From an uncultured Caproiciproducens sp. (GTDB lineage Bacteria > Bacillota > Clostridia > Oscillospirales > Acutalibacteraceae), in assembly GCF_963664915.1 (NCBI RefSeq), contig NZ_OY761810.1, positions 1,502,661-1,566,660 on the forward strand: a stretch of DNA of 64,000 nt. The letters are read 5' to 3'. The notes under the pieces were generated by a model, which made no database searches, had not been told where the DNA came from, and saw nothing but the letters and a program-made list of their open reading frames with translations. Shown here one piece after another: positions 14,350 through 43,243 of the stretch. Made by a program: the position numbers and the translations under genes. Position 1 is the stretch's first letter. Each line of letters opens with the position of its first letter.

Positions 14350-14399
14350 TATGGCAGCAAAACTGAAAACAACGATTAATTATAAAGGGGGATTCAACA

Positions 14400-18007: not shown

Positions 18008-19018
18008 TCAGATGATTTTTCTTTCCCGCGCTACGATAAAAGCACCCAGAGCAGAGAGCGGCTTAACCTGCTCCGGAACTTCACAGACGACTTTTTTGAA
18101 GTAACCGTCATATTTCAGAATATCGAAAATAGCCGGTCCAAACGGATATTTACCAACTATGACCACTGCGGTGTTTTCACTCACATGGAGCGCGGAGGAA
18201 TTCATGATTGCAAGAATATCGTTCTGCACGACGGCGCCGACAATGAAATTAGCAATTTTATTCTTATCATCAATGACGAACTGATTCAGTATGCGGCCGG
18301 AAAATGCTGCTCTGCCCATACCGCACTTCTGCGCCGTGCAATACCCCTGCAGCGTCATCTCCCTATCGTACGCCGTTTCATCATTGATGAAGTTTTTTCC
18401 CACAGCATCCGCAATAATTGTGTGATAAGTAATTGCGGAAAGCAGTTCCCCCGTAATCGAAGTCAGGCAGCCTGTTATCTGCTTTTTCTCGTTTACTGAC
18501 ACAAACTTCGTGTGGGAACCGGGAAGGACGAGCAGCATGGACTTCCCATCATAGTATTTTTCGATAATTGCAATGCTTTCAACCTCTTCGCCACGCATAA
18601 TATCCATCATTTCAAAGTTGTCAAGTGTAACAGGCGTGCCGAAATTTTTAATACCGGGGATAAACCAAATCGGCACTGAGCTGATTTCTTCCATTACAAT
18701 TTTTTGTGCCGCCGCGGCAAGCATTGCGAGATCAACCGGGGCAACAACATGCGGGATTTCAATTAGACCGACATTCGATGTAATCATTCCGCTTGCAAGG
18801 ATCGCCAGAATATCTTTTTCTGCCATGCCATGTTCGGCTGTCAGCTTTTCAATACAACCCTTTAACACACTTTTTAAGCGGTTGTTATTCCCGTCAATTG
18901 CCGTATCACGGACCCCAACGGATTCTTTGACTGTATCGATATAATTGCATTGATTGTCCCACAGCGACACACGCGTGTTAGTCGTTCCAGTATCAATCGT
19001 AATAATATATTTGTCCAT
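18008..19018 (-). CDS. dgoK: 2-dehydro-3-deoxygalactonokinase
   Basis: A 336-residue sugar-acid kinase of the DgoK family. The N-terminal phosphate-binding loop is ITIDTGTTNTRVSLW, and a second site is LVLPGSHTKFV (about residues 160-170). It phosphorylates 2-keto-3-deoxy-D-galactonate to the 6-phosphate, the second step of the De Ley-Doudoroff galactonate route. I start it at ATG 19018, behind GAGGT; the in-frame GTG 19024 is too close to that site. It is the last gene of a minus-strand operon after dgoA and dgoD, which supply the aldolase and dehydratase. Confidence 0.92.
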   Translation of the reverse strand: MDKYIITIDTGTTNTRVSLWDNQCNYIDTVKESVGVRDTAIDGNNNRLKSVLKGCIEKLTAEHGMAEKDILAILASGMITSNVGLIEIPHVVAPVDLAMLAAAAQKIVMEEISSVPIWFIPGIKNFGTPVTLDNFEMMDIMRGEEVESIAIIEKYYDGKSMLLVLPGSHTKFVSVNEKKQITGCLTSITGELLSAITYHTIIADAVGKNFINDETAYDREMTLQGYCTAQKCGMGRAAFSGRILNQFVIDDKNKIANFIVGAVVQNDILAIMNSSALHVSENTAVVIVGKYPFGPAIFDILKYDGYFKKVVCEVPEQVKPLSALGAFIVARERKII

Positions 19019-19060
19019 ACACACCTCTAAATTCCCTCATAACAGGTTGATCCGAATGAT

Positions 19061-20209
<1,149 letters not shown>

Positions 20210-20230
20210 AAGTGTATTCTCCTATAAGTT

Positions 20231-20854
20231 TTATTTCAGCTTTGCAAGTATATTCGCCACGTAAGCAGAGCCCTTTTCCCAATCCCCGGAGGCGACGACC
20301 TCTTTGGGCATCATATTGCTGCTCAACCCGGCGCCGATGCAACCGGCGTGAAAGAACTCCTGCAGATTTTCCGGATGAACGCCGCCGATTGCTACATATT
20401 CGGTGTCGTTGAACGGGCCCTTCAGGCTTTTCACATAGCTTCGCGGCATATCCCCTGCGGGAAAAAGCTTCATTGTTTTGAAGCCATAGCGCAGGCAGAC
20501 AGCCACATCCGTGGGAGTCAGTACGCCGGGCAGAAAATAGATGTCATTATCTGAGCAGTAGGAAAGAACATCCTCATTTGTAGATGGGGAAAGCAGGAAC
20601 TGCGCGCCCGCGTCAAGTGCCACCTTTGCAAGGTCAACCGTAATCGCGGTGCCCGCGCCGAACATCGCTTTGTCTCCGAATTTCTGCCGCAGCATGCCGA
20701 TCTGTTCAAGTGCGTTGGCGGAGTTAAGCGCCACCTCAAAAAAAGTTACGCCGCCTTTTATAACCGCCCCGGCGTAATCCAGCGTTTTTTCCAGCGGCAC
20801 ATTGCGCATAATTGCAAGCAATGGCCGGCTTTTTATGATCTCCCTCATATCCAT
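20231..20854 (-). CDS. dgoA: 2-dehydro-3-deoxy-6-phosphogalactonate aldolase
   Basis: A 207-residue class I KDPG/KDPGal aldolase. The catalytic Glu is in FFEVALNS and the Schiff-base Lys in KTMKLFPAGD. It cleaves KDPGal to pyruvate and glyceraldehyde 3-phosphate. Assignment to the galactonate form rests on the operon with dgoD and dgoK; the fold alone does not separate it from the KDPG aldolase at 44204. It is the first gene of the operon, about 65 bases from a near-consensus promoter. ATG 20854 follows an AAAGGA ribosome site. Confidence 0.9.
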   Translation of the reverse strand: MDMREIIKSRPLLAIMRNVPLEKTLDYAGAVIKGGVTFFEVALNSANALEQIGMLRQKFGDKAMFGAGTAITVDLAKVALDAGAQFLLSPSTNEDVLSYCSDNDIYFLPGVLTPTDVAVCLRYGFKTMKLFPAGDMPRSYVKSLKGPFNDTEYVAIGGVHPENLQEFFHAGCIGAGLSSNMMPKEVVASGDWEKGSAYVANILAKLK

Positions 20855-20947: not shown

Positions 20948-21111
20948 AAGGCATTACAGAAATTACAGTCGGCGTAAATATGCCAAAAGGCGGATTTATC
21001 GTGAGTCCTCGTATGACCGATCGGCGGACTATTGGAAAAAGAGGCAACTTGTAACAAGAAACAACAAACTGAAAGAATGATTGTGTAAATTAACAAAAAA
21101 TAAATAACATG

Positions 21112-21138
21112 TTGACTTTTTATAGATAATACTATAAT
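21112..21138 (+). promoter_or_regulatory. Sigma-A promoter of the TRAP-1/transketolase operon
   Basis: TTGACT (21112-21117) and TATAAT (21133-21138) with a 15-base spacer, or TAATAT two bases further with 17. It faces the dctQ gene and gives a leader of about 130 bases. Confidence 0.65.
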
Positions 21139-21275
21139 ATACATGGTAGCCAGTATTACAGGTTGTCAGGTAAGACGTTCAACAGGAAACGCATCTGGGG
21201 AGGCGGTGTGAAACTACTGAACTGTGGCAATCAAACATTACTTGCGGTTGGAGACAAAAGGAGGCGGAGTTAAAA

Positions 21276-21755
21276 GTGAGTTCAATCAAAAAAATCAACA
21301 CGGTCACAATGAGAGCGTTCGAGATGCTCTTGGCTATTCTTGGCACTATGATGGTTACGGTAGTGGTAGGCAATGTTTTTTGTCGTTATCTATTACACAC
21401 TACTATCCCGTGGGCGGAAGAACTGGCTAGATTTTCTTTCATTTGGGTAACCTTTATCGGCACGGTGCTGGCAAATGATAAAACCGAGCATATGCAGCTC
21501 GACTTTATCGTTAACGCTTTTCCTAAAAAAATAAGTAAATTCCTATCGCTGATTGCCCTGCTTGTGGTAATGGTTCTGCTGGGCTTTCTGATTCGGGGCG
21601 GCATACAGTACACGATGACACAGTGGGACTGGATGACATCTGCGCTTCACGCGCGTGCCGGTTTAGTTTACAGTATTGCTCCCATTTCCATGCTTATCAT
21701 GGAATTTCAGTTCATAGCGCGGTTTATCAGCGGTATCATTCATTTTAAAGACTAA
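21276..21755 (+). CDS. TRAP transporter 1, small permease (DctQ)
   Basis: A 159-residue protein with four transmembrane helices and the DctQ signature FCRYLLHTTIPWAEELARFSF-like segment around residues 32-52 (W-x-E-E). It is the small membrane subunit of a tripartite ATP-independent periplasmic transporter and pairs with the large permease 16 bases downstream. It begins at GTG 21276 behind AAGGAGG. It is the first gene of a plus-strand operon that continues through the binding protein and catabolic genes; the substrate is probably a sugar acid. Confidence 0.9.
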   Translation: MSSIKKINTVTMRAFEMLLAILGTMMVTVVVGNVFCRYLLHTTIPWAEELARFSFIWVTFIGTVLANDKTEHMQLDFIVNAFPKKISKFLSLIALLVVMVLLGFLIRGGIQYTMTQWDWMTSALHARAGLVYSIAPISMLIMEFQFIARFISGIIHFKD

Positions 21756-21770
21756 GGAAGGAGGGACGAA

Positions 21771-23045
21771 ATGTTAGCCATTTTTTTAATTAGCTTGTTT
21801 GGCTTGGTATGCCTCGGGGTTCCTGTAGGATTTTCCTTGGTTGGAACCGCCGTATTCATGATGTTGGCACAGAACAATATAGTCTTTCTGAAATTAGCGC
21901 AAAGCTTTATTACAGGTGTTGACAGCGTTCCGTTGCTGGCCATCCCGTTCTTCATGATTGCCGGAGAAATTATGAATAAAGGAGGCATCTCGAGGAGAAT
22001 CGTCACCTTTACAAAGGTTATGCTGGGGCATCATCGCGGCGGTCTCGGCTATGTTGGCGTAGTTGCTTCAATGGTATTCGCCGGAATCACCGGCAGCGCG
22101 GTAGCCGACACCACTGCAATCGGCAGCGTCATGCTACCGATGATGAAAGAAACCGGCTACGATGACAAAAAAAGCACCAGTGTAATATGTGCTTCCGGGT
22201 GTATCGGTCCAATCATTCCGCCCAGTACGCAGATGATCATTTACGGCGTTATTGCCGAATGTTCCATCTCTAAGCTGTTCGCCGGCGGTATTATTCCCGG
22301 CATTCTAATGGGATTTTCTTTGATGGGCCTATGGTTTTTTCACGCCCGCAAAGCAAAATATCCCGTCGGTACGAAAGCCACCTTCAGTGAAAGAATCAAA
22401 GCGTTTAAGGAAGCGATCCTGGCTATTATGCTTCCGGTTTTCATCATTGTTTGTATTCTCACCGGTGTTGCAACGGCCACCGAGACTGCTGCAATTGCTG
22501 TCGTGTATGCACTGATTGTATCGATGTTCGTTTATAAAGAAATGAGTATCAAAGAATGGCCCAGTCTCATCATCTACGCTTGCCGCGGTACCGCGGTCAT
22601 GATGTTTGTGGTGGGTGCGGCGAATGTGGCGGCTTACCTGGTCACCACCGCTTCAATTCCGCAATTGCTGGCTCAAGCCGTTCTGTCGCTGACAAATAAT
22701 CCTTACATGTTCATGCTTTTAGTCAATGTCTTACTGGTACTGGTCGGCTGTGTTATGGACAGCGGCCCCGCTATCATGATTCTTGCACCGATCCTTCTCC
22801 CTATTGTAAGGCAGTTTGGTATAGACCCTGTCTATTTTGGAGTGGTCATGGTCTGCAACCTTTGCATAGGTCTGCTGACTCCTCCGGTCGGAAACGTGCT
22901 TTACGTCGGAGTCAGTTTGGGTAAGATTAAACTTTTTGATCTAATAAAAGCAATGTGGCCGTTTGTGGCTATTATGTACGTTGTTTTGTTTATCATTACA
23001 TTTTTTCCGAAACTTGTTATGTTCATACCGAATCTTTTGGGATAA
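21771..23045 (+). CDS. TRAP transporter 1, large permease (DctM)
   Basis: A 424-residue DctM-family membrane protein with about twelve hydrophobic helices. Family marks include PFFMIAGEIMNKGGI near residue 65, GITGSAVADTTAIGS near 107, and CIGPIIPPSTQMIIYG near 143. It carries the sodium-driven transport path of the TRAP system. ATG 21771 follows GGAAGGAGG. It lies between dctQ and the binding-protein gene. Confidence 0.93.
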   Translation: MLAIFLISLFGLVCLGVPVGFSLVGTAVFMMLAQNNIVFLKLAQSFITGVDSVPLLAIPFFMIAGEIMNKGGISRRIVTFTKVMLGHHRGGLGYVGVVASMVFAGITGSAVADTTAIGSVMLPMMKETGYDDKKSTSVICASGCIGPIIPPSTQMIIYGVIAECSISKLFAGGIIPGILMGFSLMGLWFFHARKAKYPVGTKATFSERIKAFKEAILAIMLPVFIIVCILTGVATATETAAIAVVYALIVSMFVYKEMSIKEWPSLIIYACRGTAVMMFVVGAANVAAYLVTTASIPQLLAQAVLSLTNNPYMFMLLVNVLLVLVGCVMDSGPAIMILAPILLPIVRQFGIDPVYFGVVMVCNLCIGLLTPPVGNVLYVGVSLGKIKLFDLIKAMWPFVAIMYVVLFIITFFPKLVMFIPNLLG

Positions 23046-23057
23046 TAACAGCGGATT

Positions 23058-23086
23058 AACGACAGTATTATGAAAGAACTGTCGTT
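23058..23086 (+). terminator. Intercistronic hairpin before the TRAP-1 binding protein gene
   Basis: AACGACAGT (23058-23066) pairs with ACTGTCGTT (23078-23086). It sits between dctM and dctP with no long T tract, so it more likely protects or processes the message than stops it fully. Confidence 0.5.
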
Positions 23087-23114
23087 CAATAAAAAAAATT
23101 AAAGGAGAAAAAAC

Positions 23115-24191
23115 ATGACTAAGAAACTCGTTTCCCTAGTACTTGCCACAAGCGTGGCAATGAGCATGCTCGCAGGCTGCGGCGGCCTTGGAAACAACAT
23201 AACTCCTGCCTCTGCGGCGCAGTCCCAGGCGGCATCCCAAAGTTCTGCTGCCGGCAATGCAAAACTGACCATTAAGCTGTCTAACGGCGCCAGCGCGAGT
23301 TCCCCGGGCGTAGTGGCACAGAACAGCACCTTTAAAAAACTGGTGGAGGAAGCTTCTAACGGCACGATTGCCGTTCAAGTTTATTCCGACAATCAACTTG
23401 GCGACGACACCAAGGGAACCGAAGCTGTTCGTGCAGGAGACCTGGAAATGTGCAATACCTCCACTGCACCGCTAGTTGGTCTTGTTCCTGAACTCGCTAT
23501 CTTTGATATTCCCTTCCTGTTCAATAACAGCGAAGTTGCTGATAAAGTTATTGACGGGGATATCGGCAAGATGCTCAACGAGAAGCTGGCAGAAAAAGGT
23601 CTTATCAATCTTGCGTGGAACGAAAATGGATTCCGCGACCTGACCAACTCTAAAAAAGCAGTTACATCACCGAGCGATCTTGCAGGACTCAAGATTCGCA
23701 CGATGGAAAATCAGTTCCATCTGGAAGCATGGAAAGACATGGGCGCCAATCCGACTCCGATGAGCTGGACCGAGGTATTCACAGCACTTCAGCAGCACAC
23801 CATTGACGGTCAGGAGAACCCGATTCCGAATTTCTATGCCGCCCACATTCAGGAAGTCAACAAATACGTCACCCTTACACACCACATCTATTCTCCTTTC
23901 CTGCTGCTCTATTCCAAGGCAAAGTGGGACACCTATGATGCGGCTACCCAGAAGATTATCAGTGATGCAGCAGCACAATACTCTAAGGCAGAGCGCGAAC
24001 TGAATCGCACACAGGCTGAAACACTGCAGAAAAAGCTTGTAGACGAGGGCTGCACAGTAACAGAGCTGACTGACGCTCAAAAGCAGGTCTTCAAAGATAA
24101 GACCGCATCTGTTTGGGACAGCGTCAAAGCAAAAGTCGGCGACGATATGATCACGAAGCTTAAGGCTGCTGTTAAAACTGCTGAAGGCTAA
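23115..24191 (+). CDS. TRAP transporter 1, substrate-binding lipoprotein (DctP)
   Basis: A 358-residue DctP-family solute-binding protein. The lipobox LAGC places the lipidated Cys at about residue 22. A Ala/Ser-rich linker follows, then the binding domain: YSDNQLGDDTKGTEAVRAG, the conserved Arg region LAGLKIRTMEN (the Arg usually holds the substrate carboxylate) and FTALQQHTIDGQENP. In a Gram-positive cell it is tethered outside the membrane. The substrate is not readable; aldonates fit the operon. RBS AAAGGAG. Confidence 0.92.
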   Translation: MTKKLVSLVLATSVAMSMLAGCGGLGNNITPASAAQSQAASQSSAAGNAKLTIKLSNGASASSPGVVAQNSTFKKLVEEASNGTIAVQVYSDNQLGDDTKGTEAVRAGDLEMCNTSTAPLVGLVPELAIFDIPFLFNNSEVADKVIDGDIGKMLNEKLAEKGLINLAWNENGFRDLTNSKKAVTSPSDLAGLKIRTMENQFHLEAWKDMGANPTPMSWTEVFTALQQHTIDGQENPIPNFYAAHIQEVNKYVTLTHHIYSPFLLLYSKAKWDTYDAATQKIISDAAAQYSKAERELNRTQAETLQKKLVDEGCTVTELTDAQKQVFKDKTASVWDSVKAKVGDDMITKLKAAVKTAEG

Positions 24192-24230
24192 TCATTTTTC
24201 GAATATTTCTTCTATTGGTCAAGGAAACGG

Positions 24231-24261
24231 GAGACGTCCTAAAAAGTCCCCATGACGTCTC
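24231..24261 (+). terminator. Intercistronic hairpin after the TRAP-1 binding protein gene
   Basis: GAGACGTC (24231-24238) pairs with GACGTCTC (24254-24261), with extra flanking pairs. With the hairpin before dctP it brackets the binding-protein gene, a common means of raising its message level over the permeases. Confidence 0.5.
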
Positions 24262-24290
24262 TCGGATCCTTAAAGAGAAAGGATAATTGC

Positions 24291-25316
24291 ATGAAAGGCA
24301 TTGTATACGAAGGTCCAAATAAATTGAATTATCAGGATGTTCCTGATGTTTCCCCAAAACAGGGCGAAGTGAAACTGAGGGTCAAAGCCTGCGGCATCTG
24401 CGGCAGCGACGTACATGGCTATCTGGGTTTGACCGGGCGGCGGCTTGAACCTATGATGATGGGCCATGAGTTCGCAGGCGAGGTCGTGGAGCTGGGCGCG
24501 GGTGTAACCGGCCGCCAGATCGGCGAAAAGGTTGCGGTTTACCCGGTCGATTTCTGCGGAACATGCGAGATGTGCAAAAAAGGTGATGTCCATCTGTGTC
24601 TGAATAAACGCGCCTTTGGCGTTCTGGATGTTGACGGCGCGTTTGCCGAATATATCTGTGTGCCGGCCAAATGCTGTTTTACAGTAAAGGACGATGTTCC
24701 TTATGCAATAGGCAGTTTAATGGAGCCGCTGGCTGTCTCTTATCGCGGAGTGGGGCATGCCGGGGATCTGAGCGGTAAAAATGTTCTTCTGGTGGGAACA
24801 GGCACAATCGGTCTTTTGGCACTGGCCTGCGTAAAAATGAAGAATCCCCGTAAAATCTTCGTTTCCGATTTGAGCGATTCCCGCTTAGAGGTCGCACGCA
24901 GCATGGGAGCAGATGTACTTATCAATCCCAGCAAGCAGAATTTTAAAGAAATCATTTTTGCGAACACCGACGGCAAAGGTGTGGATGTGGCGATTGAAGC
25001 GGTGGGCGCGACCCCGACAGTACAGCAGGCAATGTCAGCGCTGGCATTCGGCGGAACGGCAGTCTGGATCGGCAATAACAAACCAATGGTAGAGATCAAC
25101 ATGCAGGAGATTGTAACCCGCGAATTGACGGTTCATGGTTCTTTCCTCTACGGCTACGAGGAGTTCAAAACGGTTGTGGGATTGCTCAATGAGGGCAAGC
25201 TTAATGTTGCCCCTCTTATCAGCAAAGAGATCTCACTTGCACAGGCTCCGGAATATTTCTATAAACTGGCGCATGATCCGGGCGAAATGATCAAAGTGGT
25301 TGTCGTAGGTCATTAA
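24291..25316 (+). CDS. Zinc-dependent polyol/aldonate dehydrogenase (MDR family)
   Basis: A 341-residue medium-chain dehydrogenase. The catalytic zinc site is CGICGSDVHG and GHEFAGEV. The structural zinc is bound by the four Cys of CGTCEMCKKGDVHLC. The NAD Rossmann fold starts at LLVGTGTIGLLAL. It belongs with sorbitol, threonine and L-idonate 5-dehydrogenases, which oxidise a secondary alcohol next to a terminal CH2OH. In this operon it would produce a keto-aldonate for the transketolase encoded downstream. I start it at ATG 24291, after an AGAGAAAGGA site; the in-frame ATG 24252 lies inside a hairpin. Confidence 0.85.
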   Translation: MKGIVYEGPNKLNYQDVPDVSPKQGEVKLRVKACGICGSDVHGYLGLTGRRLEPMMMGHEFAGEVVELGAGVTGRQIGEKVAVYPVDFCGTCEMCKKGDVHLCLNKRAFGVLDVDGAFAEYICVPAKCCFTVKDDVPYAIGSLMEPLAVSYRGVGHAGDLSGKNVLLVGTGTIGLLALACVKMKNPRKIFVSDLSDSRLEVARSMGADVLINPSKQNFKEIIFANTDGKGVDVAIEAVGATPTVQQAMSALAFGGTAVWIGNNKPMVEINMQEIVTRELTVHGSFLYGYEEFKTVVGLLNEGKLNVAPLISKEISLAQAPEYFYKLAHDPGEMIKVVVVGH

Positions 25317-25375
25317 CTTTGTTCAATAAATAAGCCTAAATCGGTATTGACATTCGGTTGCATTGTTATCAAACA

Positions 25376-25401
25376 GCCTGTTGCAATATTTCGAAACAGG
25401 C
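25376..25401 (+). promoter_or_regulatory. Inverted repeat upstream of the GntR gene, candidate operator
   Basis: GCCTGTT (25376-25382) and AACAGGC (25395-25401) form a perfect 7-base inverted repeat just upstream of a TATAAT box at 25416-25421. It lies 44 bases before the GntR gene and may be its operator. A good -35 box is not seen. Confidence 0.45.
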
Positions 25402-25444
25402 AGTATGATCATATCTATAATGTAAACAACAGGAGGGTATTACA

Positions 25445-26137
25445 ATGAAAATTAAGCCGATTGTCTACCAAACAATAAGTGACCAGGTGTTTGAGCAAAT
25501 GAAACAGCAAATTTTACAGGGCACTTGGAAACCGGGACAGAAACTGCCCTCCGAAAATGATTTGGCAGCCAGTTTTGAGGTGAGTCGAATTACGGTGCGG
25601 CAGGCAATGCAGAAATTAGCAATACTCGGACTGATTGATACCCGTTCCGGTGAGGGTTCGTATATTAAAGAAGCAAGCCTTTCCCCAATCATGAACGGAA
25701 TTATGCCAATAGCCTATTTAGGCGATAACGATATCCGACAGGTACTTGAATTTCGGCAGATGGTGGAAGTTGAAACCGCAGGCTTCGCCGCCGAAAAGGC
25801 AACACCGGAGGAAATTGCTCAGCTGAGAGCGCTCTACAATGAGATGAAGAAGATTGAAATAGAAAAAGACCGGCAGCAATTTGCCAAGCTTGATTTGGAT
25901 TTCCATTTTAAGATTGCGGAGATGACCAAAAATGAACTGATTATTGCTACCCATAACATTTTAAGAGAAATACTGAGCACCGCTATGGAGCAGATTGTAG
26001 ATCATCTCGGAAGCGACATTGGCATCTACTATCATGGAAAACTGCTGGAAGCAATAGAAGCACGGGACGTTAAACAAACAAAGGACATCATGCGGGAACA
26101 TGTACAGAAAACGCTGGAGAGTATGTGCTCCAAATAA
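25445..26137 (+). CDS. GntR/FadR-family regulator of the aldonate operon
   Basis: A 230-residue repressor-type protein. Residues 8-75 are the GntR winged helix (PGQKLPSENDLAASFEVSRITVRQAM). Residues about 95-225 form an FCD all-helical ligand domain, with the metal-binding Asp/His pattern in LDLDFHFKIAE and later His residues. FCD domains usually bind sugar acids or other carboxylates through a metal. It is embedded between the dehydrogenase and transketolase genes, so it probably senses a pathway intermediate and controls this operon. RBS AGGAGG. Confidence 0.9.
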   Translation: MKIKPIVYQTISDQVFEQMKQQILQGTWKPGQKLPSENDLAASFEVSRITVRQAMQKLAILGLIDTRSGEGSYIKEASLSPIMNGIMPIAYLGDNDIRQVLEFRQMVEVETAGFAAEKATPEEIAQLRALYNEMKKIEIEKDRQQFAKLDLDFHFKIAEMTKNELIIATHNILREILSTAMEQIVDHLGSDIGIYYHGKLLEAIEARDVKQTKDIMREHVQKTLESMCSK

Positions 26138-26203
26138 AATGTCATTGGTACTTATCTGTCCGGTTTCCCGTCGCGTAATTTAACATAGGAGGTAATTATT
26201 ATT

Positions 26204-27046
26204 ATGACAAATCAGGATACAGTTAAAAAGATTGAAAAACTGGCAATCAATATCCGTCGTGATGTTGTCAATATGATTGGCGGAGAGGGGCACGTCGGCC
26301 ATTTAGGCGGTTCATGCTCCAGTGCCGACATTGTAGCCGCACTTTACGGACATAAAATGAAATTCGATCCGAAGAACCCGCAGTGGGAAGGCCGCGATAA
26401 ATTCATTTACAGCAAAGGCCATGCCGCGATTGCACAGTACGCTGCACTCGCAGAAACCGGATATTTCCCCGTTGAGGAACTAAACACCTGCAAAAAACTC
26501 GGCTCCCGGCTGCAGGGCCATCCCGACCGCTGCAAGACTCCCGGCATTGAGGCGGGCACCGGTTCGCTGGGCCAGGGCCTCTCCATTGCCAACGGTATGG
26601 CACTGGCAATGCGCCTTGACAAAAAGGGAAATAAAGTCTACTGCATCATGGGCGACGGCGAGATGGACGAAGGTCAAATCTGGGAAGCCGCTATGGCGGC
26701 CGCCAATTTCAAGATTGACAACATCGTTGGTATCGTTGATAAGAACTGCTTACAGGCAACCGGCGCCTGTGCTAACCGCTTCAACACGGATCCGCTGCCG
26801 GAAAAATGGAAAAGTTTCGGCTGGCATGTCATTGAAATTGACGGCCACAATGTGGAGCAGATTCTTGCTGCGTTTGAAGAAGCGGATACCGTCAAAGGCA
26901 TGCCGACTGTTATTATTGCACATACCACCAAAGGCAAGGGCATTTCTTTTGCTGAAAACGTGGTAGGTTTCCACAATGGCTCTTTAACCAAAGAACAGTA
27001 TGAGACCGCGCTGAAAGAACTGGATTCACAGTTCGCAGCTTTATAA
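26204..27046 (+). CDS. Transketolase, N-terminal (TPP-binding) subunit
   Basis: A 280-residue half transketolase. The thiamine diphosphate motif is GDGEMDEGQIWEA followed 26 residues later by DKN; the active-site His is in KGHA and GHP-type motifs (YSKGHAA, LQGHPDR). It needs the C-terminal half encoded 20 bases downstream. Transketolase moves a two-carbon unit from a ketose to an aldose. Placement in a catabolic operon, not with general pentose genes, suggests a dedicated substrate. Split transketolases with special substrates are known, for example in apiose and sulfoquinovose breakdown. Confidence 0.92.
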   Translation: MTNQDTVKKIEKLAINIRRDVVNMIGGEGHVGHLGGSCSSADIVAALYGHKMKFDPKNPQWEGRDKFIYSKGHAAIAQYAALAETGYFPVEELNTCKKLGSRLQGHPDRCKTPGIEAGTGSLGQGLSIANGMALAMRLDKKGNKVYCIMGDGEMDEGQIWEAAMAAANFKIDNIVGIVDKNCLQATGACANRFNTDPLPEKWKSFGWHVIEIDGHNVEQILAAFEEADTVKGMPTVIIAHTTKGKGISFAENVVGFHNGSLTKEQYETALKELDSQFAAL

Positions 27047-27065
27047 GAAAGGAGATGTGCCAGAT

Positions 27066-27995
27066 ATGACAAAAACACAAAGCCAGCGTTTAGCATACGG
27101 CGAAGAAATCGTCGCACTGGGCGCCGAAAATTCAAACGTAGTCGCTCTTGAAGCGGATCTTGGCAAATCTACCATGTCCTGCCTGTTCCAACAGGCATAT
27201 CCCGACCGCTACTTCGAAATGGGTATTGCAGAGCAAGATATGCTCTCAACGGCTGCCGGGTTGGCTGCCAGCGGGAAAATTCCGTTTTGCAGCACTTTCG
27301 CAGTTTTCGCCACCGGCAGAGCTTATGATCAGATTCGTCAGACAATCTCTATTGGAAAGCTTAATGTAAAACTCTGCGGATCTTCTTCGGGCCTCTCTGA
27401 TTTTGGCGACGGCTCTACCCATCAGGATATTGAAGATGTCGCGCTGATGAGCGTAATTCCGAATATGACGGTGCTGACCCCCTGCGACGCTACTGAGACA
27501 CGTCAGGCGGTACGTATGGCCGCTGCAATCGACGGCCCGGTATACATCCGCGTTGTCAGAAATGATCTTCCCGATTATATCGGTGAAGAGGATAAATTTG
27601 AAATAGGGAAACTGCGTGTGCTGAATGAGGGTTCCGATGTTGCAATCTTCGCGCAGGGCTCCATGGTCAGCGCCTCCATGAAGGCTGCTGAACTTTTAAA
27701 AGCACAGGGGATCTCTGCAAAAGTGGTCAATGTTTCCACAATGAAACCATTTAATTATGCAGGCGTGGCGGAAATCGCAAAATCTGTCAAGGCGGTGGTT
27801 ACCACTGAAGAACACAATTTTATTGGCGGCCTTGCTTCTGCCGTTGCACTGTCCCTGCGGACATCCTGTGTACCCATGGATTATGTCGCAGTACAAGATG
27901 TCTTTGGCCAGTCGGCCTATGGTGCGCAGGAACTCCTGGAGCATTACGGACTGACCGCAGAAAATATTGCAGATAAGGCAAAAAATCTGCTGTAA
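27066..27995 (+). CDS. Transketolase, C-terminal (pyrimidine-binding) subunit
   Basis: A 309-residue partner of the preceding gene. The conserved Glu that activates thiamine diphosphate is in MGIAEQDM (about residue 59). The pyrimidine domain is followed by the transketolase C-terminal domain (VAIFAQGSMVSASMKAAELL). AAAGGAGA is placed for ATG 27066; the in-frame GTG 27057 overlaps it. With the N-terminal subunit it forms one heterotetrameric enzyme. See the hunt section for the reaction I infer. Confidence 0.92.
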   Translation: MTKTQSQRLAYGEEIVALGAENSNVVALEADLGKSTMSCLFQQAYPDRYFEMGIAEQDMLSTAAGLAASGKIPFCSTFAVFATGRAYDQIRQTISIGKLNVKLCGSSSGLSDFGDGSTHQDIEDVALMSVIPNMTVLTPCDATETRQAVRMAAAIDGPVYIRVVRNDLPDYIGEEDKFEIGKLRVLNEGSDVAIFAQGSMVSASMKAAELLKAQGISAKVVNVSTMKPFNYAGVAEIAKSVKAVVTTEEHNFIGGLASAVALSLRTSCVPMDYVAVQDVFGQSAYGAQELLEHYGLTAENIADKAKNLL

Positions 27996-28023
27996 TGATG
28001 ATCAAAAAAGGAGAACTGATTTC

Positions 28024-28911
28024 ATGAAAATAGGATTTATAGGACTTGGCATTATGGGGAAACCCATGGCAAAAAACCTCATGAAGGTTGGACATGAATT
28101 AGTCGTGTTTGATGTAGTGCAGGCAAATGTTGACAATGTAGTGGCGGCCGGCGCGAAGTCTGCTGCTTCCTCAAAAGCAGTTGCTGAACAGTGTTCCATG
28201 ATTATTACAATGCTCCCAAATTCTCCCCATGTTAAAACGGTGGTCATGGGCGAAAATGGTGTGCTGGAAGGCGCGAAGGCCGGTACCGTCCTCATTGACA
28301 TGTCTTCGATTGCACCGTTCGCTTCCCAGGAGATTAACAAGGCCTGTGTAGCAAAAGGGGTCAAAATGATCGATGCGCCGGTATCCGGCGGCGAGCCAAA
28401 AGCGGTCGACGGGACTCTTTCCATTATGGTTGGCGGCGATAAAGAAGTATTTGAAAGTGTCAAAAAGGACATTCTGCTGAAGATGGGCGCTTCAGCGGTA
28501 TATTGCGGAACCATCGGCGCGGGCAATACGACGAAGCTTGCAAACCAAGTTGTTGTGGCCTGCAATATTGCCGCCTGCGCAGAGGCATTTACGCTTGCTA
28601 AAAAAGCCGGCGTAGACCCACAGTTCGTTTTTGATGCAATCAAGGGCGGCCTTGCAGGCTCTACCGTAATGAACGCGAAGGCTCCTATGATGATTGACGG
28701 CAACTTCAAACCTGGCTTTAAAATTGATCTGCACATTAAAGATCTGAACAATGCGCTCGAAACCGGGCACGGCGTCGGTTCCCCGCTGCCGCTGACGGCC
28801 GCGGTAATGGAAATGATGCAGACGCTCCACGCCGACGGGCACGGTCAGGAAGATCATAGCAGTCTGGCAAATTACTACGCGAAGGTTTCCGGGACGAAGA
28901 TCGGCAAATAA
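28024..28911 (+). CDS. garR: Tartronate semialdehyde reductase-like dehydrogenase
   Basis: A 295-residue beta-hydroxyacid dehydrogenase. NAD(P) loop FIGLGIMGKPMAKNL at the start, substrate motif DAPVSGGEPKAVDGTLS (about residues 118-134), and catalytic Lys in GNTTKLANQ (about residue 170). It is nearest in pattern to 2-hydroxy-3-oxopropionate reductases (GarR/GlxR), which reduce tartronate semialdehyde to D-glycerate. The glycerate kinase just downstream supports this. 3-hydroxyisobutyrate or succinate semialdehyde enzymes are alternatives. Start ATG 28024 behind AAAAAAGGAG. Last gene before a terminator. Confidence 0.85.
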   Translation: MKIGFIGLGIMGKPMAKNLMKVGHELVVFDVVQANVDNVVAAGAKSAASSKAVAEQCSMIITMLPNSPHVKTVVMGENGVLEGAKAGTVLIDMSSIAPFASQEINKACVAKGVKMIDAPVSGGEPKAVDGTLSIMVGGDKEVFESVKKDILLKMGASAVYCGTIGAGNTTKLANQVVVACNIAACAEAFTLAKKAGVDPQFVFDAIKGGLAGSTVMNAKAPMMIDGNFKPGFKIDLHIKDLNNALETGHGVGSPLPLTAAVMEMMQTLHADGHGQEDHSSLANYYAKVSGTKIGK

Positions 28912-28941
28912 ATTCAATTTGATATCTCTGATTTAATTTCT

Positions 28942-28990
28942 ACAGTGGGGCGCGTTCTGTTGTCAGTACAATAGAATGCGCCCCCACTGT
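28942..28990. terminator. Terminator or attenuator between garR and glycerate kinase
   Basis: ACAGTGGGG-CGCGTTCT pairs with AGAATGCGCC-CCCACTGT over about 17 bases (28942-28958 with 28974-28990). No T run follows immediately on the plus strand, so read-through to glycerate kinase is possible. Confidence 0.65.
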
Positions 28991-29092
28991 GTATTTATAT
29001 AGCATGACATTTTTAAAACCGGCGCTGGGAAATTCCGCATTGATATCGTTGACCATTCAATAGATTTAGAATAACGAGGGAGATTGAACAAC

Positions 29093-30226
29093 ATGAAAAA
29101 AGTCATTTTAATTCCAGATTCGTTTAAAGGTACAATGGATTCCGCTGCAATATGCGGAATTATGAACGAACAAATTGAAGCTCATTATCCAGATGTGGAA
29201 ACAGTCTCCATTCCGGTAGCAGACGGCGGTGAAGGTAGTGTAGATGCGTTTCTGACGGCAGTCGGCGGAGTGAAAAAAACTCTGACCGTTTCCGGTCCGT
29301 TCTTTAAGCCCGTCAATTCTTTTTATGGAATTATCAACGGCAGTACGGCTATTATAGAAATGGCGGCCTGTGCAGGCCTGCCGCTCGCCGGAGATCGTCT
29401 GGACCCGGCCGCGGCAACGACGTATGGTGTAGGCGAACTGATTTTGGACGCGGCTAAGTCCGGCTGCAAAAAAATTATCATCGGACTTGGCGGAAGCTGC
29501 ACCAATGATGCCGGCGCCGGAATGGCGGCTGCTTTAGGAATAAAATTTTATGACGAAAAAGGTCAGGAATTTATTCCGACGGGCGGAACCCTTGCAAAAA
29601 TCAGGCATATTCGAAACGATCAGGCTTCCGATTTGCTTTCCGGCATTGAATTTGCAGCCATGTGTGATATTGACAATCCGCTCTGCGGGCCAACAGGTGC
29701 CGCCTATGTTTTTGGCCCTCAGAAAGGTGCCGACGCGTCTATGGTTGCAGCACTGGACGAAGGTTTGCAAAATATCGCGCGCATCATTCAAAACGACCTT
29801 GAAAAAGACGTCACGAACATCCCCGGCTCCGGTGCAGCCGGCGGTTTAGGCGCCGGGGTGGCGGCTTTTTTGAACGCTAAGATGCAGCCTGGAATTGATA
29901 TCGTGCTGGATACCGTTCGCTTTGACGACTTATTAAAAGATGCCGATCTGGTTTTTACAGGCGAAGGAAAAATAGACACACAGAGTCTTCGCGGAAAAGT
30001 CGTCATCGGCGTTGCACGCCGCGCAAAAAAAGCCGCGGTACCGGTCATTGCTGTTGTTGGCGACATCGGTGATAATATTGAAAAAGCGTATGATATAGGA
30101 GTTTCAGCCATTTTCAGCATCAATCGCGTCGCAGTACCGTTTAAGGAAGCCAAATTGCGCAGCCAAAGCGACCTTTCCCTGACCGTTAACGATATTATCC
30201 GTTTTTTAAAGACTGCAAATTTTTGA
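29093..30226 (+). CDS. garK: Glycerate kinase
   Basis: A 377-residue glycerate kinase of the GarK/GlxK family. Marks are PDSFKGTMDS at the N-terminus, VADGGEGSVDAF (about residues 45-56), the Gly-rich GLGGSCTNDAGAGMAAALG, and VFTGEGKIDTQS near the end. It phosphorylates D-glycerate to phosphoglycerate (2-phosphoglycerate in the GarK family), feeding lower glycolysis. With the preceding reductase it disposes of tartronate semialdehyde. ATG 29093 follows GAGGGAGA; TTG 29084 is in frame but less well spaced. Confidence 0.93.
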   Translation: MKKVILIPDSFKGTMDSAAICGIMNEQIEAHYPDVETVSIPVADGGEGSVDAFLTAVGGVKKTLTVSGPFFKPVNSFYGIINGSTAIIEMAACAGLPLAGDRLDPAAATTYGVGELILDAAKSGCKKIIIGLGGSCTNDAGAGMAAALGIKFYDEKGQEFIPTGGTLAKIRHIRNDQASDLLSGIEFAAMCDIDNPLCGPTGAAYVFGPQKGADASMVAALDEGLQNIARIIQNDLEKDVTNIPGSGAAGGLGAGVAAFLNAKMQPGIDIVLDTVRFDDLLKDADLVFTGEGKIDTQSLRGKVVIGVARRAKKAAVPVIAVVGDIGDNIEKAYDIGVSAIFSINRVAVPFKEAKLRSQSDLSLTVNDIIRFLKTANF

Positions 30227-31136: not shown

Positions 31137-31499
31137 CTATTTTGCGTCTACATTCTTTGTCACAATGACATTGCTGTCAAGGCCAAGCACATTTTCGATA
31201 ACAACTTGACCGATTTTGACGGGTGCTTTCAATCTGGCTTCTTTGATTTCTTTCATAACACGGAAGATTTTTTCTTTCGGAATAGGCTTAGAAAGCCGAA
31301 CGCTCGCAAGAGGTAAAACACCGTCCTCCAAAAAAACGGATGATGCAATATTTCTTACAGGATTCGTTAGCTCCTGACGCACATACTCCTGCCCCCGGTT
31401 ACAGCTTGCGTCCGTTAAAGAGAGAATTTGACCGTTTTCAACCTCTGCCGTAATTTCACAACTGTTTGGGCAGACGATACAAATATACTTTTTCAGCAT
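31137..31499 (-). CDS. DUF1667 small Cys-containing protein of a GlpA-like module
   Basis: A 120-residue DUF1667 protein. It has CIVCPNSC near the start and a second Cys region in DASCNRG, a likely metal or Fe-S site. The family is nearly always found with a GlpA-like dehydrogenase and a second FAD oxidoreductase and is thought to be a subunit of that complex, perhaps replacing GlpC. It overlaps the preceding gene by seven bases, so it is translationally coupled. Third gene of the minus-strand operon 34210-31137. Confidence 0.85.
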   Translation of the reverse strand: MLKKYICIVCPNSCEITAEVENGQILSLTDASCNRGQEYVRQELTNPVRNIASSVFLEDGVLPLASVRLSKPIPKEKIFRVMKEIKEARLKAPVKIGQVVIENVLGLDSNVIVTKNVDAK

Positions 31500-32728
31500 G
31501 TTACGCGCACCTCCAAACTGCCTGTGCCGGAAAGAACCTCTTTTTGAATGGGGATCTGTATCATTTGAGCGGGAATCGCTTTTATTATTTTTTTTGATTT
31601 CAGAATTTTACCATTCTGACAAATGTTAATGACACAATCCTGTAACGGCTTGCTTACCCTCATCGAAAGCATGAAGCTGTTTTTACCACTGATTTTTTGA
31701 GGCACGGTATGATTGATGTTTTCGTCCGGCAATATTGAAATTGTTGCTTTGGGCAGACTCTGGTTTTGAAGGTAGTCGGCCACGGAGTCCGCGAGGGCTT
31801 CTGCTTCCATCGATACGAAATCCACTAAATCATGGACATGCAGCACGTTGCCGGCGGCGAAGATACCGTCAACACTGGTTTGATAATGTTCATCCACAAT
31901 GGCCCCTTTCGTGCGGCTGTCCAGCTCCACTCCTGCTTCCAGAGAGAGCTCGTTTTCCGGAATCAGACCAACCGACAGGATTAACGTGTCGCAGTCTAAG
32001 TCCTTTTCCGTACCGGGAATAGGATTCATATGCTCATCCACATCGGAAACCGTTATCCCGGTAAGGCGGCAATTTCCATGGATGCCCGTCACCGTTCTGC
32101 TGAGATACAGCGGTATTCCGTAGTCATTCAGGCACTGTTGAATATTGCGCGGCAGACCGCTGGGATAGGGCTGGATTTCAAATACCGCCTTCACTGTCGC
32201 GCCTTCCAGTGTGAAGCGCCTTGCCATGATCATTCCAATATCTCCGGAGCCCAAAATGATGATATTTCTTCCTACCATCGTATTTTGCAGATTTATGTAA
32301 GCCTGTGCTACCCCCGCTGTAAACACGCCGGCCGGACGTTCGCCCGGGATGCCCAATGCTCCCCGGGTACGTTCCCTGCAGCCCATGGCCAAAACGACCG
32401 CTTTCGCCTGGTAGGTTTTTAGACCGTCACGTCCGACCGTAGTTACGACTTTATCTTGTCCGACGGAAAGCACGGTTGTATTTGTCAGGCATGATATGTT
32501 ATCTTTTTCCGTTTCATCTATGAACCGCTGGGCATATTCCGGCCCGCTGAGTGTTGTCTTGAATCTGGTCAGCCCAAAACCGTCGTGAATACACTGACGC
32601 AGAATACCGCCCAAAGTATTTTCACGTTCAATTACTAAGATATTTTTAATTCCTCTATGATATAGTTCAACTGCAGCAGCAAGCCCCGCAGGGCCGCCGC
32701 CAATGATGATTACATCTTTCTGTTCCAT
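31493..32728 (-). CDS. FAD/NAD(P)-dependent oxidoreductase of a GlpA-like module
   Basis: A 411-residue two-dinucleotide-fold flavoprotein. FAD loop GGGPAGLAAAVELY at the start, NAD(P) loop LGSGDIGMIMARRF near residue 155, and FAD motif SVDGIFAAGNV near residue 285. It lacks a CxxxxC redox-active disulfide. In this family of clusters it is encoded between the GlpA-like dehydrogenase and DUF1667, and probably passes electrons from the dehydrogenase to NAD or another acceptor. RBS AGAGGGTG. Confidence 0.87.
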   Translation of the reverse strand: MEQKDVIIIGGGPAGLAAAVELYHRGIKNILVIERENTLGGILRQCIHDGFGLTRFKTTLSGPEYAQRFIDETEKDNISCLTNTTVLSVGQDKVVTTVGRDGLKTYQAKAVVLAMGCRERTRGALGIPGERPAGVFTAGVAQAYINLQNTMVGRNIIILGSGDIGMIMARRFTLEGATVKAVFEIQPYPSGLPRNIQQCLNDYGIPLYLSRTVTGIHGNCRLTGITVSDVDEHMNPIPGTEKDLDCDTLILSVGLIPENELSLEAGVELDSRTKGAIVDEHYQTSVDGIFAAGNVLHVHDLVDFVSMEAEALADSVADYLQNQSLPKATISILPDENINHTVPQKISGKNSFMLSMRVSKPLQDCVINICQNGKILKSKKIIKAIPAQMIQIPIQKEVLSGTGSLEVRVTC

Positions 32729-32755
32729 AGGAATGACACCCTCTTTTTTATTAAA

Positions 32756-34210
32756 TCAACCTTCCCGGACTTTTCCGGTAAACAGATTGGAGTTTTGCCG
32801 GGCATACAGTACATCTGTGGGTTTGGTCCCCAATTCTTCTTCAATCATTTTGGCAATGCGCATTTGGCAGTATCCGCCCTGACAACGCCCCATCATCGAG
32901 CGCGTCCGGTATTTAATTCCCACCAGGGTGCTTACTCCTAAAGGATTATGAATCGCCTTTAAAATTTCCGCTTTTGTGATTTTCTCACATCTGCAGACGA
33001 TTTCGCCATAATCAGGGTCTTCCGCGATCAGCGCGTTTTTTACTTCGACGCTTTGTTGGGCAAAGCGCACAAAGCTTTTGCGCCGGGGGCAGAAACTTTC
33101 GTTTGGCTTTAAAACTTCCTGCTGCGACATCAGCTTTACAACATGACGGGCAATGGGCAGCGCTGCGGTAAGTCCCGGTGATTCAATGCCGATCAGGTTA
33201 ATTGTGTGAGGCGCTGAATCAACCTTTGCTTCGATCCTAAAGTCCTGAATAACGCCATGATCATCGACCCACTTCGGCAATATGCCGGAATAATTTCGTA
33301 TGTAGTCGGCCTTACGGATACATGGCCATAAATCGGACGCGCTTTTTGCAAGATAGTCCATGTTCTTCTGCGGCACACCGTAATAAGAAAAATCGGTAGT
33401 CGCTTCTGCGTCGGGGCCCACAATGACATTTCCGTCAATGGTCGGCGTGACATGGATGCCCATATAGGTATTGCTTGGGACGGGATAAACCGGCAATGGC
33501 AGCAGTGGGCCGGTCCGCTTGTCCAGAATAATATAATCGCCCTTGGAACCAATGATATGATAACCGGAGATGCCCAGCATTTCGGAGACTTTTCCACATC
33601 CCAGCCCCGCGCTGTTGATAACCCAGCGGGTACGGAATTCGCCGTGGAGGGTTATAACAGTATAAGTTTCATCCATGTTTTTGTGAATTGAAGTCACTTC
33701 ATGGTCAAAATAATACTTTATGCCGTTTTGCGCCGCGTTTTCCGCCAGAGCAATGGTGTATTGAAAGGGGTCCGTGATACCGCTGTTGGGAGACAGCAGG
33801 GCGAATTCGCCACGAACGGCCGGTACTATTTCGTGAAGTTCTTTTCTGTCGATAATGGTTAGGCCCTTTACACCGTTTTCTTCTCCTTGCTGAATAATAT
33901 GTTGAAGGCTTTTCAGCTCTTCATACGAATTTCCGACCAAAACTTTGCCGGTTCGCTTGAAAGGAACATCCAGTTCCTCCGCTGTTTTATCGAATTCATT
34001 ATTTCCCTCTACGCATAATTTTGCTTTCAAGGTACCGACATCGTACGCGAATCCGGCATGGACAACTCCGGAATTTCGTCCGCTGGTTTCATAGCATACG
34101 TCCAGATTTTTTTCTAAAACACCGACTGTTAATTTGTTTCTTGCTATTTCACGGGCAATGGCTGAGCCAACGACGCCACCGCCGACAATAAGTACATCGA
34201 ACTGTTCCAT
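32756..34210 (-). CDS. GlpA-like FAD dehydrogenase with BFD-type Fe-S domain
   Basis: A 484-residue flavoprotein of the glycerol-3-phosphate / 2-hydroxyglutarate dehydrogenase group. FAD loop VGGGVVGSAIAREI at the start; GRNSGVVHAGFAYDVG near residue 45 is typical. The last 80 residues form a bacterioferritin-associated-ferredoxin-like [2Fe-2S] domain with CRCEK and CQGGYC. Usual substrate is glycerol 3-phosphate, but no glpK or glpF is present and the neighbours handle sugar acids, so a hydroxy acid or glycerate-type substrate is possible. First gene of its operon. Confidence 0.87.
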   Translation of the reverse strand: MEQFDVLIVGGGVVGSAIAREIARNKLTVGVLEKNLDVCYETSGRNSGVVHAGFAYDVGTLKAKLCVEGNNEFDKTAEELDVPFKRTGKVLVGNSYEELKSLQHIIQQGEENGVKGLTIIDRKELHEIVPAVRGEFALLSPNSGITDPFQYTIALAENAAQNGIKYYFDHEVTSIHKNMDETYTVITLHGEFRTRWVINSAGLGCGKVSEMLGISGYHIIGSKGDYIILDKRTGPLLPLPVYPVPSNTYMGIHVTPTIDGNVIVGPDAEATTDFSYYGVPQKNMDYLAKSASDLWPCIRKADYIRNYSGILPKWVDDHGVIQDFRIEAKVDSAPHTINLIGIESPGLTAALPIARHVVKLMSQQEVLKPNESFCPRRKSFVRFAQQSVEVKNALIAEDPDYGEIVCRCEKITKAEILKAIHNPLGVSTLVGIKYRTRSMMGRCQGGYCQMRIAKMIEEELGTKPTDVLYARQNSNLFTGKVREG

Positions 34211-35196: not shown

Positions 35197-35250
35197 AATA
35201 AGATGCGAAAATTTAGAGTGCCAGTAAATTGTATTTGGGAGATGTTGAAT

Positions 35251-36273: not shown

Positions 36274-36306
36274 TATTTTTATATAAAAGTTGAAGGAGAG
36301 AAAAAA

Positions 36307-37368: not shown

Positions 37369-37390
37369 TCGATTATCACCAATTTATGGA

Positions 37391-37449
37391 TGCAGCCGGT
37401 TTCACGGCCGACGAAAAAAGGCAAGAATTCGAACTTTGAATCGGCTGCA
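37391..37449 (+). terminator. Intercistronic hairpin after the TRAP-2 binding protein gene
   Basis: TGCAGCCG (37391-37398) pairs with CGGCTGCA (37442-37449), with an inner ATTC/GAAT hairpin. No T run follows. It probably stabilises the dctP message or lowers permease expression. Confidence 0.5.
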
Positions 37450-37489
37450 ATATTTATGAAATGCATTCTTATGAAAAAAAGGTATGAGT

Positions 37490-43236: not shown

Positions 43237-43243
43237 GGATTGT

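Follow-up and report, generated by a model that had tools for sequence, protein, structure and literature searches.

A split transketolase clade linked to tartronate semialdehyde reductase suggests an undescribed route of aldonic acid breakdown in bacteria

We analysed a window of 64,000 nucleotides from the single-contig genome (3.13 Mb in total) of an uncultured Caproiciproducens sp. (Acutalibacteraceae, Clostridia of the gut type; assembly GCF_963664915.1, contig NZ_OY761810.1, positions 1,502,661 to 1,566,660). Nine intact open genes run in one direction on the plus strand between positions 21276 and 30226 and, as the original prediction had read them, encode a tripartite ATP-independent periplasmic (TRAP) importer, a zinc dehydrogenase, a GntR regulator, a split transketolase, GarR and a glycerate kinase. 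Pfam and NCBIfam supported the family names of all but the first, dctQ (small TRAP membrane subunit, 21276..21755), which was named by homology to dctQ of other transketolase loci (35–42%). It is followed by dctM (large TRAP membrane subunit, 21771..23045; PF06808, 402 bits), dctP (TRAP solute-binding protein, 23115..24191; PF03480, 301 bits), the gene of a zinc polyol/aldonate dehydrogenase that we propose to be a pentonate 4-dehydrogenase (24291..25316; PF08240 ADH_N and PF00107 ADH_zinc_N) and that of a GntR/FCD regulator (25445..26137; PF00392 and PF07729). The split transketolase consists of a thiamine diphosphate subunit, tktN (26204..27046; PF00456 Transketolase_N, 177 bits), and a pyrimidine-binding and C-terminal subunit, tktC (27057..27995; PF02779 Transket_pyr and PF02780 Transketolase_C). 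The run ends with garR, encoding tartronate semialdehyde reductase (28024..28911; equivalog NF008592, 475 bits, cut-off 397), and glxK, encoding a type II glycerate kinase (29093..30226; PF02595, 471 bits; TIGR00045, 432 bits). These last two genes likely start with the ATGs found at 28024 and 29093 rather than as longer frames from TTG. The nearest named relative among the fetched loci was 'bacterium MS4, Amazonia massiliensis' (L057), the tktC of which is 95% identical.

A leader (21100..21260, plus strand) contains a promoter-like TTGACT...TATAAT followed by GTATTACAGGTTGTCAGGTA at 21153–21172, a candidate operator. Even when three mismatches were allowed, this 20-base pattern occurred nowhere else in the window, and promoter-like matches were in no clear excess in the region (18 versus 13.4, standard deviation 3.7, in shuffles). 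In the sister genomes G003 and G010, a homologous leader stands directly before the zinc dehydrogenase gene with no TRAP genes between, so the TRAP genes of the window apparently lie inside the leader-driven unit. The common leader would thus tie the importer genes to the transketolase operon. A related element, GCCTGTAATACAGGC, occurs 5' of a gntR-liv operon in G010 that holds SDR-tktN-tktC-garR-glxK (SDR, short-chain dehydrogenase/reductase); this suggests, but does not prove, that the operons bearing the two elements form one regulon. A hairpin lies between garR and glxK (28941..28991, plus strand; −37.5 kcal/mol, z −8.3), and it was absent from the terminator-like elements called on the plus strand.

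The garR product was the one match to the GarR equivalog NF008592 in the genome, and since it passed the curated cut-off, its reading as a generic beta-hydroxyacid dehydrogenase was ruled out. Among the GarRs encoded in related transketolase clusters, 58 of 59 (window included) matched the same model at E 1e-119, which approximates its curated cut-off as extrapolated from the window score. The SGG motif, Lys171 and Asp240, which we take to be of the kind that forms the family active site, were invariant among the GarRs of the loci. The absence of a GarL aldolase and of a glucarate or galactarate dehydratase, noted by the original prediction for the operon, holds across the whole genome at curated cut-offs: the best scores were 99.7 bits for GarL (cut-off 407), 301 bits for galactarate dehydratase (GarD; 731) and 28 bits for glucarate dehydratase (GudD; 829), whereas for each of these families one or more of 14 control genomes did exceed the cut-off. 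A hidden GarL was sought among the two PF03328 proteins and rejected; the better one (at 370 kb) scored 104 and 100 bits on the two GarL models, against cut-offs of 393 and 407. The claim that the usual source of tartronate semialdehyde is missing could be extended to glyoxylate carboligase (Gcl, TIGR01504; genome-wide best 308 bits, cut-off 711) and hydroxypyruvate isomerase (28 bits, cut-off 353). With all five enzymes below their cut-offs, tartronate semialdehyde has no known source in this genome. Two glycerate kinases are encoded, the second at 710 kb.

The best solved relatives of the transketolase, which has separate N (thiamine diphosphate) and C (pyrimidine-binding and C-terminal) chains with matching Pfam domains, were 6yaj and 6yak, with the split transketolase 6yak nearest to TktN. 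With five aligned TktC proteins as the query and each species represented by one genome, a search gave at least 80 named loci, 51–95% identical. Together with the window and three further loci (L037, L038 and L041), these made up a clade of 84 members, which was compared with 38 other transketolases (from the window's own order, plus a second enzyme of L135). In a quick IQ-TREE phylogeny of 121 TktC sequences, the 83 sequences with a GSS motif formed one side of one branch (SH-aLRT, a Shimodaira–Hasegawa-like test, 92), and the GSS label changed once on the tree, versus a mean of 33 when shuffled. Members came from eight phyla: Bacillota, Spirochaetota, Synergistota, Verrucomicrobiota, Bacteroidota, Planctomycetota, Chloroflexota and Pseudomonadota. 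Positions fixed in the clade (at least 90% within it, rare outside) numbered eight in TktC (M55, V83, D91, S110, D115, G117, N169, A287) and eight in TktN (G26, Q78, K97, E116, L126, A185, A250, N258).

Active-site residues were numbered from an alignment of TktC to 6rjb, presumably the human transketolase, with residues counted by hand. R11, S38 and R168 align with R318, S345 and R474 of 6rjb, which have a phosphate role, and S110 replaces H416. Position 110 is Ser in 84 of 84 clade members and His in 34 of the 38 others. The catalytic Glu (E59) and the substrate residues R11, D118, H122 and R168 are kept in the entire clade and S38 in all members except one, which has Thr. Reading R11, S38, F84, S110 and R168 as a head-group motif (position 84 is Phe in every sequence), we obtained RSFSR for 83 of 84 members, window included, and RTFSR for one (L082). 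The window therefore matches neither RSFHR of housekeeping transketolases nor RAFDR of the sulfofructose transketolase SqwGH. According to a 2024 paper (PMC11659671), RSFHR orients the sugar phosphate in transketolase, and RAFDR, in which Ser and His are both changed, occurs in sulfofructose transketolase. Relative to RSFHR, the clade changes His alone. Ala at the Ser position is not special, as 27 of the 38 comparison sequences carry it. Ser at position 110 alone is not diagnostic either, because L004, a distant paralogue from the same genome that lies outside the clade and has no garR, shares it. The DFGDG stretch varies in some members (DYADG in L073, DYGDG or DFSDG in several, DHGDG in L130, DSADG in L136). 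If the proposed pathway is true, the motifs suggest a readable specificity code, with RSFHR for phosphate, RAFDR for sulfonate and RSFSR for carboxylate.

The neighbourhoods of the transketolase genes were compared, as the original prediction had advised. Neighbours were labelled by tblastn with cluster representatives, mostly named by eye, with the main ones checked against family models; the counts that follow refer to the same strand in the 80 named loci, many of which end at contig edges. The tktN gene adjoins tktC in all 80, and garR lies within 3 kb in 59. Within 6 kb, 67 loci have a dehydrogenase (SDR alone in 40, zinc dehydrogenase alone in 20, both in seven), 37 have gntR, eight a TIM-barrel epimerase, four an Asp/Glu-racemase-like gene and four a glycerate kinase. 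Importers at this distance were of the TRAP (13/80), tripartite tricarboxylate (10/80), GntP (3/80) and sugar- or liv-type ATP-binding cassette (ABC; 13/80) kinds. Where both flanks reached 6 kb or more (39 loci), garR was present in 31 and a dehydrogenase in 35. The 21 named loci that lack a near same-strand garR include L078, where garR is divergent, and 13 with less than 9 kb on at least one side. Within 1.5 kb, a limit set for both groups because many comparison loci have flanks of 1.5 kb only, garR accompanied 58 of the 84 clade members but none of the 38 other transketolases (Fisher p 1.4e-14, with no correction for kinship). The enzyme thus belongs to a special clade, distinct from the housekeeping enzyme and tied to GarR across phyla.

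Small operons indicate what the core may be. One reads gntR-tktN-tktC-garR-tctCBA-SDR with one unlabelled frame of 164 codons (L133); another, beginning at a contig end, reads dctM-dctP-gntR-tktN-tktC-garR-SDR (L098, of Propionivibrio dicarboxylicus DSM 5885); L130, L104, L103 and L136 resemble these two in content, a few genes being added. An organic-acid importer, a dehydrogenase, the transketolase and GarR can therefore be nearly the whole operon. For operons of the L133 and L098 type to appear complete, tartronate semialdehyde has to be the product. Glycerate kinase, linked in four of 80 loci, is an optional end step and not part of the core.

For a held-out test, 398 genomes of the phylum were searched by TktC similarity alone. 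At E 1e-95, matches came from 17 genomes, that of the window among them; the nine new loci obtained were read, and seven of the 17 genomes yielded no locus. L151 was dropped, its tktC being identical to that of L136. At the stretch tried, none of the eight remaining loci shared 60 identical bases in a row with another locus of the set. Both GSS loci (L149, L154) carried garR, versus none of six TH loci. Identities overlapped (60 and 51% for GSS versus 53–57% for TH), and linkage as a by-product of identity was rejected, since L150 (57%, TH) lacks garR and L154 (51%, GSS) has it. In these small numbers, the GSS motif, not overall similarity, goes with garR. These results bear on one alternative, that an ordinary transketolase recycles pentose phosphates only while GarR belongs to another pathway and the linkage is chance or historical. 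Split transketolases do occur in several other sugar clusters of the genus (by eye), and the phosphate-site residues R11, S38 and R168 are retained. Set against this are the separate clade with its 16 fixed residues and changed motif, the garR linkage with which the held-out loci agree, and a genome with no other known tartronate semialdehyde source above cut-off; we consider this alternative quite unlikely.

The importer and the dehydrogenase bear on the substrate. The best solved relative of DctP was 7bbr (E 1.2e-65), which we take to be CxaP. In PMC12076931, CxaP is described as taking D-xylonate, D-fuconate, D-galactonate and D-gluconate, and PMC11668362 lists structures of TRAP relatives with erythronate or pantoate, often co-purified. 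With its nearest solved relative of an aldonate-binding kind, the predicted DctP importer would fit aldonate uptake. Among the loci blasted, its nearest relatives were DctPs of other transketolase clusters (L076, L070 and L072; 43–46%). The zinc dehydrogenase reached no specific NCBIfam equivalog cut-off (best IolM, 234 of 450 bits); its best models were scyllo-inosose 3-, threonine 3- and idonate 5-dehydrogenases. Relatives are encoded in the transketolase loci L038 (96%, partial), L057 (94%), L060 (86%), L127 (71%) and L093 (68%).

From the gene families, the linkage across phyla, the altered active site, the genome's want of another known semialdehyde source above cut-off and the shared leader, all read directly from sequence, we infer the following pathway in its substrate, every catalytic step and its stereochemistry. 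The TRAP importer would bring an aldonic acid, probably a pentonate, into the cell. The zinc dehydrogenase, or an SDR in many relatives, would oxidise the carbon adjoining the terminal CH2OH to give a 4-keto-pentonate, a ketose with a carboxylate where xylulose 5-phosphate has its phosphate. Transketolase splits a ketose ending in CO-CH2OH between C2 and C3, and from a 4-keto-pentonate this cut gives a two-carbon unit and OHC-CHOH-COO-, which is tartronate semialdehyde, the substrate of GarR. The split transketolase would thus move the C4-C5 unit to glyceraldehyde 3-phosphate, making xylulose 5-phosphate, while C1-C3 would leave as tartronate semialdehyde. GarR would reduce the latter to glycerate with the NADH from the dehydrogenase step, and glycerate kinase would pass it as phosphoglycerate to glycolysis. 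The scheme would be redox-neutral and require ATP for glycerate kinase only, with neither a dehydratase nor a pyruvate aldolase. A keto-tetronate would be cut to glyoxylate and a keto-hexonate to a tetruronate. Since GarR is present and a 4-keto-pentonate alone yields tartronate semialdehyde in one cut, the donor probably has five carbons, and a C4-oxidised pentonate fits best by chain length. We are fairly confident that the GarR substrate arises when the clade transketolase acts on a keto sugar acid, and regard the full pentonate form of the pathway as likely, with less assurance.

If the acid were a hexonate, the dehydrogenase would make a 5-keto-hexonate, and transketolase would split this into xylulose 5-phosphate and a tetruronate (a C4 aldehyde acid); threonate or erythronate would then form by the action of the GarR homologue. 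D-galactonate-type genes adjoin the operon. The SDR of L088 (Faecalicatena orotica), the one scanned, reached 200 of the 279 bits required by a gluconate 5-dehydrogenase model, and its best solved match is named gluconate 5-dehydrogenase. GarR acts on 3-oxo acids, however, and 58 of 59 GarRs match its equivalog. The resulting C4 acid would need more enzymes, yet a scan of 76 unlabelled operon neighbours gave one PdxA, no DUF1537 or class II aldolase was found among the commonest 25 of 86 families, and glycerate kinase would be without a role. In favour of this form, PMC11066805 considers such a reaction of transketolase with 5-keto-D-gluconate in the context of plant tartrate and cites a mutant E. 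coli enzyme that carries it out. On this evidence the hexonate form is rather unlikely.

A branched acid of the apionate type is another candidate: a donor like 3-oxo-isoapionate would give xylulose 5-phosphate and hydroxypyruvate, which would be converted to tartronate semialdehyde and then reduced. The TIM-barrel epimerase or isomerase found in eight of 80 loci would suit such a route, and the one scanned (L103) is weakly like hydroxypyruvate isomerase (58 of 353 bits). The same protein is closer to D-psicose 3-epimerase (94 bits) and IolO (88), both below cut-off; moreover, 72 of 80 loci have no TIM-barrel epimerase within 6 kb, the window operon has none, and no hydroxypyruvate isomerase of the genome exceeds the cut-off. 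We judge this route very unlikely. In the remaining alternative, two transketolase cuts would turn a hexonate into glyoxylate, and reduction by the GarR homologue would give glycolate. Some beta-hydroxyacid dehydrogenases reduce glyoxylate. The use of one split transketolase twice, on sulfofructose, is described in PMC11659671. Two cuts would require an aldose-ketose isomerase; none was labelled in the small operons and one RpiB-like gene was noticed by eye in L075, though no systematic isomerase search was made. We consider this alternative highly unlikely. The pentonate pathway accounts for linkage, motif and genome content jointly better than any of these rivals.

Several observations weigh against the pentonate pathway. 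CxaP also binds hexonates (PMC12076931), a point that favours the hexonate form. The L088 SDR misses the gluconate 5-dehydrogenase models; the sole cut-off that it exceeds is that of a broad subfamily model named 'glucose 1-dehydrogenase' (232 versus 215 bits). Acid-type importers (TRAP, tripartite tricarboxylate or GntP) occur within 6 kb in only 25 of 80 loci; 12 have ABC importers only and 43 have none of these. In some relatives, the starting compound may thus be a sugar or a glycoside. No recognised dehydrogenase lies within 6 kb on the same strand in 13 of 80 loci. Part of the garR-transketolase linkage is common ancestry, 26 of 84 clade members lack a same-strand garR within 1.5 kb, and seven loci (L059, L061, L070, L075, L090, L124 and L127) lack garR despite about 10 kb on both sides. 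Distant members of the source-enzyme families are present in the genome and could in principle act. Glycerate kinase is rarely linked elsewhere, and glxK here sits behind a strong hairpin.

Stereochemistry raises a further difficulty. By our own derivation, the canonical D-threo donor would here be the keto acid from D-arabinonate or L-xylonate, and its cleavage would give the semialdehyde enantiomer leading to L-glycerate; GarR makes D-glycerate. Either the semialdehyde equilibrates via its enol, or the clade reads other stereoisomers, or GarR differs here. Several clade changes flank D118, the equivalent of D424. The original prediction of a transketolase-cut aldonate is partly supported, by the clade linkage, the altered motif, the usual semialdehyde sources being below cut-off genome-wide, the aldonate-type relative of DctP and the common leader; it left the enantiomer of the semialdehyde out of account. 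SDR and zinc dehydrogenase, which are unrelated, may act on epimers of an acid and so arrive at the same keto acid. The ketose-3-epimerase-like protein may extend the substrate range; in the eight of 80 loci that encode it, it could plausibly adapt acids in which C3 has the wrong configuration.

Several known systems share parts of this logic. The apulose 4-phosphate transketolase of D-apiose catabolism is likewise a special split transketolase in a catabolic cluster; it has a phosphorylated branched donor and a dihydroxyacetone product, and GarR is not known to take part. The E. coli glucarate/galactarate pathway also passes from tartronate semialdehyde via glycerate to phosphoglycerate by GarR and glycerate kinase. 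In contrast to that route, whose enzymes GudD, GarD and GarL did not exceed their cut-offs in this genome, a dehydrogenase and a transketolase would replace dehydratase and aldolase, and no pyruvate would be formed. Nearest, together with a plant proposal, is the sulfo-transketolase of sulfoquinovose breakdown (SqwGH), a split enzyme with an altered motif that transfers a two-carbon unit of an unphosphorylated ketose to glyceraldehyde 3-phosphate, giving xylulose 5-phosphate (PMC11659671). The proposed pathway differs in its motif (RSFSR, not RAFDR), carboxylate donor, single cut and terminal GarR, and the clade lies apart on the tree from RAFDR and RSFDR sequences (L054, L056). For tartrate formation in plants, transketolase has been proposed to break the bond that joins the keto carbon of a keto-aldonate (5-keto-D-gluconate) to the adjacent carbon; that route differs in its six-carbon donor, tartaric semialdehyde product, unsettled enzyme and biosynthetic direction (PMC11066805). 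The original prediction knew of no described pathway with such logic, and among the listed titles and beginnings of abstracts from 5.39 million open-access papers (subscription literature being outside the scope) we found no transketolase route from a keto-aldonate to tartronate semialdehyde. Several papers that contain both 'transketolase' and 'tartronate semialdehyde' (for example PMC7895386, PMC6966089, PMC2173943 and PMC8307300) concern, by their titles, carbon fixation, photosynthesis or general metabolism. The operon would represent a variant of transketolase-dependent catabolism, and the pathway itself is probably undescribed.

Variants of the locus were seen in related genomes. L054 (genome G002, positions 7590–15228), from the same genus, is the one locus of the set that reads RAFDR; its split transketolase lies near iron-dehydrogenase-like, RpiB-like and transaldolase-like genes (by eye), such as the sulfosugar pathway might have, which serves as an internal check of the motif, and it is possibly a sulfoquinovose cluster in a sister species. 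In G003, of the same genus, two divergent transketolase-GarR systems (L037 and L038) adjoin each other, one of the zinc dehydrogenase type and one of the liv-ABC/SDR type, with garR copies each about 95% identical to that of the window. In Petroclostridium sp. X23 (L075, 5278–11811), a clade transketolase stands by a PFL-like glycyl-radical enzyme with an SDR, activase-like and RpiB-like genes (the last two by eye) and no garR, perhaps reflecting another substrate for the same clade. Larger variants are found in Lachnospiraceae and relatives (L084, L092, L111, L116), where tktN-tktC-garR-SDR is flanked by genes for GH3, a Gfo/Idh oxidoreductase and glyoxalase-like proteins, and in three of the four also for an enolase-superfamily and a TIM-barrel protein; a glycoside-fed version is possible. 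Pentose-releasing enzymes occur in some ABC-type relatives (GH127 beta-L-arabinofuranosidase in L127, an arabinofuranosidase C-terminal domain in L058), but GH94, GH31 and GH3 occur too, so this support for a five-carbon substrate is weak. In L041, L090, L106, L126 and L129, an Asp/Glu-racemase-like gene directly precedes tktN, with a TIM-barrel epimerase nearby in four of the five; the racemase-like protein is possibly a second epimerase of the keto acid.

Other sugar-acid genes surround the operon in the window. On the minus strand, head to head with it, lie dgoA-dgoD-dgoK-like genes of the D-galactonate type (18008–20854). DgoD was supported by NF010624 (640 bits, cut-off 311); DgoA met the broad KDPG/KHG aldolase model (162, cut-off 156) and missed the KDPGal model (135, cut-off 207). 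The dgoK-like gene matched no NCBIfam model and takes its name from gene place. No separate importer was noticed beside these genes, and the TRAP system might serve D-galactonate too, although the leader common to the sister genomes argues that it is part of the transketolase operon at least. A minus-strand group at 31137–34210, behind a second GntR/FCD regulator, encodes a flavin adenine dinucleotide oxidoreductase with a BFD domain (32756–34210), a second flavoprotein (by eye) and a small protein that we take to be DUF1667. A second sugar-acid cluster (35203–44833, plus strand) has an RspB-like zinc dehydrogenase, a TRAP importer, and fructuronate-reductase/arabinitol-dehydrogenase-like, KDG-kinase-like and KDPG-aldolase genes, most of them below equivalog cut-offs.

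Taken as a whole, it is on balance probable that the clade with the RSFSR motif marks a widespread, undescribed aldonic acid pathway of oxidation next to the CH2OH group, one transketolase cut and reduction to glycerate. In PMC11066805, L-xylonate and L-lyxonate are named as breakdown products of vitamin C. If the pathway is true, aldonic acids, including the C5 acids from vitamin C, would be consumed in anaerobes through genes that now bear generic names (transketolase, tartronate semialdehyde reductase), a transketolase clade seen in eight phyla would gain a function, and enzymes would become available that convert sugar acids to tartronate semialdehyde and xylulose 5-phosphate.

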